DNA of 20,610 nt from Coriobacteriales bacterium (GTDB taxonomy: Bacteria; Actinomycetota; Coriobacteriia; Coriobacteriales; UBA8131), in NCBI GenBank assembly GCA_031286975.1, contig JAITTM010000012.1:1-20610 (forward strand), written 5' to 3'. The translations under genes and the position numbers were made by a program. The first letter of the stretch is position 1. Each line of letters opens with the position of its first letter. This document shows, piece after piece, positions 1,203-3,155 of the stretch. The notes under the pieces were generated by a model that was not told the DNA's origin, made no database searches, and saw nothing but the letters and a program-made list of their open reading frames with translations.

Positions 1203-1649
1203 TCAACCCATACCTTTCAACGCGGCCTGAAACTCATCCAGATCCTTAAAATCCTTGTAGACCGAAGCGAAGCGGATATAGGCGACATCGTCGATATCGC
1301 GCAGGCGCAGCAACACCATATCGCCCAAGGTAGTCGAGCGCACTTCGCTCTTCATCGTGTTGCGTATCTCCGCCTCGACATCGTCAATCAGATGGTTGAG
1401 CTTGCTCACGGGAATATCGCGTTTTGCTGTGGCGATCATCAGACCCCGCAGGAGTTTCTCTCGGTCAAAGGGCTCGGAGCTCTTATCGTTTTTCAGGACT
1501 ATCAGGGGGGATTCATGATGCCGTTCATAGGTGGTGAAGCGCTTGTTGCACGAGGAACACTCACGTCGCCTTCTGATAGAGAGCCCGTCCTCCGAAGGAC
1601 GAGAGTCTATGACAGCCGATTCGATACCACCACAGTTTGGACAGCGCAT
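1203..1649 (-). CDS. nrdR: Transcriptional repressor NrdR of ribonucleotide reductase genes
   Basis: NrdR binds nucleotides through an ATP cone and represses ribonucleotide reductase operons when dATP is high. The sequence shows an N-terminal zinc ribbon (Cys3, Cys6, Cys31, Cys34, starting MRCPNCGG), the basic RRRREC segment and an ATP-cone domain (about 49-139). At 148 residues it has the usual family size. The frame is open to an ATG at 1676, but I chose the ATG at 1649. It gives the family-standard MRCP start, has a GGGGG ribosome binding site, and the upstream ATG would lie at or before the predicted transcription start. dut follows with no gap. A NrdR box within its own promoter suggests autoregulation. 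Read-through from the SOS-controlled small ORF upstream is also possible. Confidence 0.96.
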   Translation of the reverse strand: MRCPNCGGIESAVIDSRPSEDGLSIRRRRECSSCNKRFTTYERHHESPLIVLKNDKSSEPFDREKLLRGLMIATAKRDIPVSKLNHLIDDVEAEIRNTMKSEVRSTTLGDMVLLRLRDIDDVAYIRFASVYKDFKDLDEFQAALKGMG

Positions 1650-1720: not shown

Positions 1721-1864
1721 TTATCCGAGAGTGGGCAGAATTACCAGAATGAGCGAGAAGCCACCGGCCAATGCGATTGCCATAACTTTTTGTGGGAGGG
1801 TGACGCCCTGCAACGCGACGCCATTACAGCTCTCCGCCTTGAACATCTTTCTGATCGTTCTCAT
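1721..1864 (-). CDS. Small single-pass membrane protein, predicted SOS-induced (47 aa)
   Basis: This short gene starts with ATG at 1864 behind a strong ribosome binding site (TAAGGAG, 6 bases away) and ends with TAA at 1723-1721. The product has a basic amphipathic start ([12 protein letters not shown]), a short linker with one Cys, and one hydrophobic segment near the C-terminus (about residues 27-46, [20 protein letters not shown]). It ends one residue after that segment. It is transcribed divergently from lexA, from a promoter whose spacer holds a LexA box, with another box in the leader. In other bacteria the slot beside lexA or under LexA control often holds a small cell-division inhibitor (YneA, DivS, SidA). 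I see no LysM domain and no clear similarity, so the function is inferred from position and topology only. A degenerate remnant of a longer YneA-like gene is the main alternative. Confidence 0.7.
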
Positions 1865-2003: not shown

Positions 2004-2648
2004 ATGACAAAGAAGGAACTGACCAATCGGCAGCGAGAGATACTGGATTATCTGCGAACTGCCACCGCCAAGAATGGCTACCCGCCCAGCGTGCGCGAGA
2101 TAGGTGATGCCATTGGGCTGTCCTCATCCTCAACGGTTCACACGCATCTTCACGCTCTTGAAAACAAGGGCTACATCCGCCGCGACTCATCGGCTGCTCG
2201 CGCGTTGGTCATCCTCGACCCGGCGACTATTGAAGAGTCGAGCAGCTTGAGTGACGAGCCCGACGTATTTCGCAATGTGGTGACCCTGCCTCTGGTGGGG
2301 CGCGTTGCGGCAGGGGCGCCCATCCTTGCCGAGCAAAACATCGAGGAGACCTATCCCCTGCCCTCACAGATTGTCGGTGATTCCAGCTCCTTCATGCTCA
2401 CCGTCAAAGGCGAATCCATGATTGAAGCCGGTATCCTTGACGGTGATTACGTCGTGGTAAAGGAGCAGCCCACCGCCAATAACGGCGACATCGTGGTGGC
2501 GCTCCTTGATGACGAGGCAACCGTCAAGACCTTCTACCGCGAGCCCAACCGCATACGGCTGCAACCCGAGAATCAGACAATGGATCCCATCTACACAACC
2601 GATGTGACCATCCTCGGCAAGGTAGTAGCACTGCTCCGCGCACTCTGA
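2004..2648 (+). CDS. lexA: SOS response repressor LexA (autoproteolytic)
   Basis: LexA represses DNA-damage genes and cleaves itself when RecA filaments form. The 214-residue protein has the N-terminal winged helix (about 1-65, with [28 protein letters not shown]), the scissile Ala103-Gly104 in GRVAAGAP, and the Ser138 (GESM)/Lys175 (ATVKTF) catalytic dyad of the S24 peptidase domain. The frame is open upstream to 1698, but I chose the ATG at 2004. It follows a TAGGAG ribosome binding site, gives the standard LexA start ([14 protein letters not shown]) and lies just after a good promoter. Three LexA boxes precede it and imply autoregulation shared with the divergent small membrane ORF. mscL follows with its own likely promoter. 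Confidence 0.97.
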
Positions 2649-2726: not shown

Positions 2727-3155
2727 ATGAAGTTGATACAGGAATTCAAGGATTTTATCGCACGGGGTAACGTGCTTGATTTGGCAGTCGCCGTGATAAT
2801 GGGCGGTGCCTTTACCGCCATCATCAACTCACTGGTAGGTGATCTTGTCACGCCACTTTTGAGCCTTATCACCGGCGGAACGGATTTTGCCACCCTTGTT
2901 GTCAGGCTGGGCACGGACGACCATGCCGCTCAAATCCAATACGGCCTGTTTATCTCCGCCGTCATCAACTTTCTTCTGGTCTCGCTGGTCATCTTCTTCT
3001 TGGTCAAGACCGTCAATAAACTCTCCCGCAAAAAGCCAGCGGTTACCACCAAGACCTGTCCCTATTGCACGCAGGATATTCCTCTCGCCGCCGTTCGATG
3101 CCCCTCCTGCACAACGGTATTGGATGCGGATAAGGTACCAAAGGAGTTGCGCTAA
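2727..3155 (+). CDS. mscL: Large-conductance mechanosensitive channel MscL with zinc-ribbon tail
   Basis: MscL is a homopentameric membrane channel that opens under membrane tension to release solutes after osmotic downshock. The start MKLIQEFKDFIARGNVLDLAVAVI is the conserved amphipathic N-terminus running into TM1 (about 15-45). TM2 spans about 70-98 and ends in the basic KLSRKK segment. The usual C-terminal helical bundle is followed or replaced by a zinc ribbon with Cys111-X2-Cys114 and Cys125-X2-Cys128 (CPYC...CPSC). The total of 142 residues is normal. The ATG at 2727 has a GGGAG ribosome binding site 5 bases upstream. The gene converges with hflX; a small stem (3166-3179, GACTG/CAGTC) lies between them without a T run. 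Confidence 0.96.
   Translation: MKLIQEFKDFIARGNVLDLAVAVIMGGAFTAIINSLVGDLVTPLLSLITGGTDFATLVVRLGTDDHAAQIQYGLFISAVINFLLVSLVIFFLVKTVNKLSRKKPAVTTKTCPYCTQDIPLAAVRCPSCTTVLDADKVPKELR

Follow-up and report, generated by a model that had tools for sequence, protein, structure and literature searches.

Within a 20,610-nucleotide stretch of DNA from a Coriobacteriales bacterium (contig JAITTM010000012.1 of assembly GCA_031286975.1, hereafter "the window"), the gap between lexA and nrdR contains an open reading frame (ORF) for a 47-residue, tail-anchored membrane peptide, here designated X. We consider it near certain that X is a real SOS-type gene, and propose, with a probability of roughly two in three, that it encodes an SOS-induced septation inhibitor, i.e., a reduced protein of the YneA/ChiZ type whose helix acts on a septal synthase (likely FtsW). 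This reading combines observed features, including three LexA boxes, in-frame coding constraint, and descent (by profile chain and tree) from LysM-bearing genes of the same slot, with properties that we infer, namely membrane topology, LexA binding and induction, the division block, and the FtsW partner. The window assembly comprises 1.72 Mb in 230 contigs and is 76% complete. Named relatives with the closest LexA were metagenome-assembled genomes (MAGs) of Coriobacteriales or Coriobacteriia, and many of the MAGs with similar LexA presumably come from termite guts, judging by isolate names. Throughout, L, G, f, and g denote loci, genomes, families, and genera, with f1 the window's own family.

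A membrane peptide gene with LexA boxes between lexA and nrdR

The gap spans 354 bases, with lexA (214 amino acids [aa]; 2004–2648, forward strand; PF01726 and PF00717) running rightward from 2004 and nrdR (148 aa; 1203–1649, reverse strand; PF22811 and PF03477) running leftward from 1649. X (1721–1864, reverse strand) is divergent from lexA and lies upstream of nrdR on the same strand, with an ATG at 1864, a stop codon at 1721–1723, and a ribosome binding site (RBS) read as AAGGAG at 1870–1875, 5 nt 5′ of the ATG. Its promoter can be read on the reverse strand as TTGCAA (−35; 1923–1928), a 17-base spacer, and TATAGT (−10; 1900–1905). Three LexA boxes of the form CAAACNNNNGTTCG, spaced 28 and 30 bp and likewise given on the reverse strand, occupy this region: box 3 (CAAACAGGCGTTCG; 1879–1892) surrounds the likely transcription start of X, box 2 (CAAACGGATGTTCG; 1909–1922) lies inside the promoter spacer, and box 1 (CAAACAAATGTTCG; 1937–1950) sits on the lexA side, overlapping the −35 element of a possible lexA promoter (TTGATT 1948–1953, TACAAT 1971–1976; also read from the sequence). 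A preliminary description of the ORF had listed the 47 codons, the strong RBS, the single C-terminal hydrophobic segment, the divergence from lexA, and the same promoter, all of which are present as described; it had also placed LexA boxes in the spacer and at the start site, where they are indeed found, although the count is three rather than two. An AlphaFold2 model of X contains a helix at residues 23–46 (pLDDT about 88–96) and a weak N-terminal helix at residues 2–13 (pLDDT about 62), and the predicted topology consists of a cytoplasmic N-terminal part (approximately residues 1–26), a membrane helix (approximately residues 27–46), and nearly nothing outside.

Comparisons across Coriobacteriia drew on loci L001–L200, among which 138 had divergent lexA and nrdR and a gap of <1000 bp, representing 123 distinct gaps since some loci show one place twice. 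These gaps are not a random sample, as 80 of the 200 loci came from a single LexA scan favoring Eggerthellaceae. Tail-anchored ORFs were called by a rule whose thresholds were set after examples had been seen; it was passed by 6 of 4920 shuffled-gap draws and by none of the 123 gaps on the opposite strand. Dinucleotide shuffles of the window gap yielded a tail-anchored ORF with a good RBS in 5 of 5000 cases. A chance ORF is ruled out by the shuffles, the opposite strand, and coding constraint. For the latter, the ratio of non-synonymous to synonymous change (pN/pS) in the X set (28 pairs) was 0.56 in frame versus 0.85 and 1.45 in the wrong frames, although synonymous change here approaches saturation and closer sets therefore weigh more. 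Pairs including the window's X gave 0.57 in frame versus 0.68 and 1.75, eight 23-aa Adlercreutzia-type forms gave 0.26 versus 1.19 and 2.92, and six closer pairs of longer forms gave 0.18–0.50 versus 0.77 or more. In-frame constraint was found in all nine comparisons (one relative, L011, being trimmed to its second methionine).

When the 47-mer alone was searched against 5.8 billion proteins, the sole match was its own database entry, a 30-residue piece starting at an inner TTG. The A1 alignment (X plus nine syntenic relatives) retrieved 18 further proteins, 44–59 aa as deposited, several of them with N-terminal extensions in this deposited form, and all labeled "hypothetical protein" or unnamed. 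The suggestion that standard gene callers would miss such a gene thus holds for the truncated window entry but not for these 18 relatives, which are present in protein databases. Most X relatives have in common the motif S-[SC]-x-G-[IV]-x-L-x-G-[LMIV]-[TS]-x-x-Q-K and a C-terminal helix, usually terminating in [LIV]P-x-[ILVF], the most divergent being P0007, P0013, and P0017, and the last 20 residues are uncharged in 18 of 19 sequences. Two of the checks put forward in the preliminary description, conservation in relatives and synonymous versus non-synonymous change, bear out the gene: frame, motif, and hydrophobic segment are kept, so that the loss of frame or segment that would have refuted it was not seen, and pN/pS is lowest in the X frame.

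The association with LexA boxes extends well beyond the window. At least two boxes were found in 61 of 65 gaps with a tail-anchored ORF compared to 1 of 2460 mononucleotide-shuffled gaps, and none of the 5000 dinucleotide shuffles of the window gap had two or more; boxes were located by sequence only. At least two boxes were also present in 26 of 37 gaps with a LysM ORF and in 17 of 21 gaps of neither kind. In 52 of the 65 tail-anchored gaps, the nearest box ends 21–25 bp before the start codon (15 for the window's X). At five loci (L031, L036, L038, L039, and L040), 1.5–1.9 kb separates lexA and X, and X retains two boxes of its own beginning 34–104 bp before its start, while in G006 and G004 nrdR is on a separate contig, preceded by neither such an ORF nor a box, and X remains beside lexA. 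X hence tracks LexA boxes more closely than it tracks either neighbor, since boxes are kept when it is apart from lexA and it stays at lexA without nrdR. Overall, LexA control of X, as previously suggested for this ORF, is strongly indicated by these boxes.

Across the whole assembly, the looser pattern YRAACNNNNGTTYG gave 10 forward and 13 reverse matches (13 distinct sites) versus 29 and 32 for the reversed control pattern, i.e., a total below that of the control (23 versus 61 matches on both strands). Seven of the 13 sites had the exact form CAAACNNNNGTTCG: three at the window gap, two preceding ORFs that resemble recA (L213) and a radical-SAM gene (L202), and two within ORFs (L206 and L211), with gene names read by eye among the ORFs listed. 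At L202 (G000:C36), the box CAAACGTTCGTTCG at 680–693 ends 43 bp before the radical-SAM-like ORF (471 aa), which is likely a further SOS gene. Two observations concern lexA itself in relatives. One genome carries two lexA genes approximately 16 kb apart (L034 and L038, G027:C25), each accompanied by a separate 44-aa X and an nrdR in the vicinity. In G002, G005, G020, and G030, LexA matches as two blocks, the N-terminal one ending at 73–89 and the C-terminal one starting from 82–91, which lie 91–145 bp apart within a single open frame of 257–272 aa, which suggests a longer LexA linker in some relatives.

LysM-bearing and tail-anchored forms across Coriobacteriia

Under strict rules, the 123 gaps comprised 65 with a tail-anchored ORF (23–140 aa, with at most nine residues after the most hydrophobic 15), 37 with a LysM ORF, none with both, and 21 with neither. 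LysM ORFs were called with a profile built from 10 rows, all among these 37 gaps (27 thus being new finds), and applied, in all three frames of the nrdR strand, to every gap segment of at least 30 residues. The 21 remaining gaps included 13 near-miss tail-anchored ORFs failing one criterion (weaker RBS, TTG start, or hydropathy), a LysM-like ORF recognized by eye (L164), two ambiguous cases (L163 and L187), and five gaps without a membrane ORF. A looser ORF rule also returned ORFs that were set aside as noise (second matches of L014, L030, and L038, a 96-aa TTG ORF of L021/L039, and matches of L041, L085, and L102). At L163 (G038, f7), the helix is followed by only ~20 outside residues, without LysM, which makes it a possible intermediate form.

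LysM forms were found in the sampled outgroup families f12, f15–f20, f22, f23, and f25–f27 (the single f24 locus being ambiguous, and f11, f13, f14, and f21 lying outside the sample), as well as in 4 of 4 f10 loci, in f3 (one by profile and one by eye), and in most f5 loci, with most f5 and f10 LysM forms beginning with a G[TSN]xA[LI] motif. Tail-anchored forms occur in f1, f2 (Eggerthellaceae, judged by the named rows of its clade), f4, f6, f8, f9, and genus g50 within f5. Named examples range from 107 aa in Gordonibacter pamelaeae and 99 aa in Raoultibacter timonensis to 23 aa in Adlercreutzia equolifaciens. An N-terminal GTSAL...IIxFP region is found in the longer forms, and of the 65 tail-anchored ORFs only 43 contain a GTSAL-like motif. 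Eight Adlercreutzia/Enterorhabdus-type loci (L042, L047, L048, L050, L051, L052, L078, and L084) have only a 23-aa form after the LexA boxes, e.g., MARYEFPIAFALSTIASFVIFFA, a candidate for the smallest SOS membrane protein. X shares the traits of the class defined in this analysis as "Coriobacteriia LysM-less lexA–nrdR slot proteins", namely the lexA–nrdR position, LexA boxes, a tail anchor, and a G-x-L-x-G / RG juxtamembrane motif. Consistent with its earlier description as lacking LysM, the LysM profile found none in the window's gap, X had no Pfam match, its NCBIfam scan matched no family (YneA model NF010723 included), and no LysM was found at E ≤ 0.01 in the whole 76%-complete window genome.

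The two kinds of forms are nonetheless linked. The LysM forms L041 and L053 match Pfam LysM (PF01476) above its cut-off, and match the NCBI YneA model at 6e-15 and 1.9e-14 (55 and 53.4 bits, for a cut-off of 60), whereas X and four longer tail-anchored forms gave no NCBIfam match and nothing noteworthy in Pfam. Three profiles were compared: A1 for the window clade (ten rows), A2 for Eggerthellaceae, and A3 for ten LysM forms and two g50 forms. A1 and A2 matched over the juxtamembrane and membrane part with scores of 30.8–31.0 versus shuffle maxima of 14.3 and 21.9 (150 shuffles each), and A2 and A3 matched over the GTSAL motif with scores of 41–43 versus a shuffle maximum of 17.6 (150 shuffles). 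Long and short forms are bridged within the window's own family by L002 and L003 (genus g17), which carry GTAAIK plus G[IV]PISGATLSHK; L003 is the window's tree neighbor (support 80). A second, independent LysM-less form is that of f5 genus g50 (L135 and L141/L216), which keeps GTSAL and the VIDG stretch like its LysM sisters. In a NrdR plus LexA tree, the tail-anchored state required two changes, two being forced by starred branches; this tree included 42 chosen rows and was built with a quick method, so that its stars deserve less trust, with L163/L234 and L164/L233 omitted as ambiguous and L030 forming a long branch. Since LysM was present in all five outgroup rows, two LysM losses are the simple reading, the direction of change coming from the outgroup and not from counts alone. 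Taken together, the A1–A2–A3 chain, although indirect, and the tree support common descent of X with YneA/ChiZ-type LysM genes. X is thus best read as a descendant of the slot's YneA/ChiZ-type gene in which LysM and then the GTSAL N-terminal region were lost. The preliminary description had proposed a new minimal SOS membrane peptide: the direction of this proposal stands, while stand-alone novelty does not, X being a reduced member of a lineage with LysM in sister families.

Within the window's family, the A1 profile detected X (E below 1e-4) in 15 of the 33 genomes. The ten rows of A1 came from nine of these 15, and G013, G007, G003, G009, G026, and G016 were new. One further weak match, within a 430-residue frame, was not counted, and synteny added X in G006, G012, G024, and G025.

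Proposed function and rival explanations

Under the proposed mechanism, LexA would repress both lexA and X through the three boxes, and upon DNA damage RecA would trigger LexA self-cleavage so that X is made. X would then insert as a tail-anchored protein, N-terminus in and C-terminus out, its helix would bind the septal synthase complex (FtsW being the likeliest partner), and septal wall synthesis would be held back until the damage is repaired. The window genome encodes two FtsW/RodA-type genes. In YneA, the helix binds transmembrane segment 7 (TM7) of FtsW and LysM is needed to block synthesis, with a proposed model in which LysM holds the new glycan strand (PMC13396833). Docking on FtsW TM7 is likewise seen, though not with high confidence, in AlphaFold 3 models of ChiZ, SosA, and SidA (PMC13396833).

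Several observations weigh against an inhibitory role for X or against its conservation and descent. Bacillus subtilis YneA without LysM arrives at the septum and fails to block division (PMC13396833), so that without LysM the function could be lost or altered. The direct A1–A3 match was not significant (score 11.9, E 0.13), and the link passes via A2. Elsewhere, five lexA–nrdR gaps (L070, L083, L144, L145, and L194) contain no membrane ORF. In the window's family, the profile match of G013, G007, and G009 is on a contig other than that of lexA, and 14 of 33 genomes show no X, including every genome of g6 (five) and of g3 (two), in which lexA has at most one box and no X-like ORF, although the family assemblies are all incomplete (51–93%) and single absences mean little. 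The X-negative genomes include G002 and G005, where the nrdR locus is also visible and has no X, and G014, G020, G023, G028, G030, and G032. The g6 pattern looks like a real loss of X.

The tension is plain: a helix-only YneA is inactive in B. subtilis, yet a helix without LysM has been kept under selection in these lineages. Three options arise: the helix itself became able to inhibit, a possibility suggested by SidA; the short cytoplasmic part acts; or the role changed. The second option is hard to hold across the whole family because the Adlercreutzia form is 23 aa. A more specific version, to which we give somewhat less than even odds, is that after two LysM losses the bare helix became an inhibitor that blocks FtsW inside the membrane and makes no contact with peptidoglycan, the extreme being the 23 residues of the Adlercreutzia form. 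If true, this would be a mechanism distinct from that proposed for YneA, reached stepwise from a LysM ancestor.

TisB and DinQ are SOS-induced membrane toxins, and X may instead depolarize the membrane and lead to dormancy in the same way, with no specific septation block. A small hydrophobic peptide with LexA boxes, shrinking to 23 residues in Adlercreutzia-type forms and missing from part of the family as toxins often are, would be compatible with such a role. Conversely, profile descent from a YneA-like LysM gene of the same slot and a conserved juxtamembrane motif argue against it. Moreover, TisB is amphipathic, so the uncharged last 20 residues in 18 of 19 sequences count against a TisB-like toxin. 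As for an antisense antitoxin, no Rfam family reaches its gathering score in the window, where no known antitoxin RNA was thus found. Overall, we view this explanation as improbable, and the toxin-like alternative raised in the preliminary description is less well supported than septation inhibition. Slightly less probable again is that X serves as an SOS membrane adaptor for another partner, such as a protease or an envelope stress system, with division arrest done otherwise: the GTSAL...IIxFP region of longer forms may bind a cytoplasmic partner, but slot, boxes, and descent point to a division-inhibitor role, and the 76%-complete genome revealed no LysM protein that would perform division arrest instead.

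That X is a relic decaying after LysM loss and no longer inhibiting division would agree with the lineages without a copy and with the inactivity of LysM-less YneA (PMC13396833). We nevertheless judge this very unlikely given the in-frame constraint in 9 of 9 comparisons, the two or more boxes in 61 of 65 gaps, the retention of X with its boxes apart from lexA in five loci, and the helix kept by both LysM-less lineages. Finally, the distance from the end of X to the nrdR ATG (1649) is 71 bp, or 44 bp to an in-frame ATG (1676), and the strand is the same, but an nrdR leader ORF whose translation regulates nrdR is scarcely credible considering the protein-level conservation of X, the G006 and G004 nrdR contigs with no such ORF upstream while X is still at lexA, and the longer and LysM forms, which are ordinary proteins.

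X is a candidate DNA-damage checkpoint protein for gut Coriobacteriia, including Gordonibacter, Adlercreutzia, and the window's relatives, in which it is annotated as hypothetical, and shortened in the window. Its relatives provide a natural deletion series (GTSAL, helix, and LysM; GTSAL and helix; a short juxtamembrane part and helix; helix alone) that bears on which part of an SOS membrane inhibitor inhibits, and on the minimal size of a blocker. The 2026 YneA paper describes LysM as essential, while Coriobacteriia lineages without LysM retain the gene under selection. Literature searches, confined to open-access papers and in part to the top of longer result lists, brought up no prior report of the X family.

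Elsewhere in the window, 2727–3155 (forward strand) encodes an MscL with a zinc-ribbon-like C-terminal tail (CPYC...CPSC), with weak, below-cut-off Pfam matches to UPF0547 and other ribbon models. An inverted repeat at 667–711, composed of GGGGACGGTTCCTTGTCTCA and its exact inverted copy, adjoins a dUTPase-like ORF (named by eye); in a genome search allowing ≤2 mismatches, these two arms were the only matches of GGGGACGGTTCCTTGTCTCA.

Relation to known SOS division inhibitors

The chiZ gene is located between lexA and nrdR. More generally, Gram-positive SOS division inhibitor genes commonly adjoin lexA (PMC6851548), and YneA, ChiZ, SosA, and SidA are all small single-helix SOS inhibitors (PMC13396833, PMC6851548, PMC4211646, PMC3989709). 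YneA of B. subtilis and ChiZ (Rv2719c) of Mycobacterium tuberculosis resemble X in being encoded beside lexA, DNA-damage induced (for X, as judged by its boxes only), and equipped with a single helix (PMC6851548). Unlike these, X lacks LysM and has hardly any extracellular part, and its helix is C-terminal rather than preceding LysM; the ChiZ LysM is apparently dispensable according to a review (PMC3989709). Staphylococcus aureus SosA, which is SOS-induced, is similarly encoded beside lexA, LysM-less, and single-helix, but its helix is N-terminal and followed by a conserved extracellular C-terminal segment, whereas the modeled helix of X occupies residues 23–46 of 47. DivS of Corynebacterium glutamicum is, by description, a further actinobacterial SOS division suppressor near lexA and without LysM (PMC6851548, PMC3989709), although it is grouped with inhibitors having a predicted extracellular C-terminus (PMC6851548), unlike X. 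Lastly, SidA of Caulobacter crescentus, while from another phylum, is likened to X by its description as a tiny (29 aa) SOS-induced membrane peptide that targets FtsW (PMC4211646).
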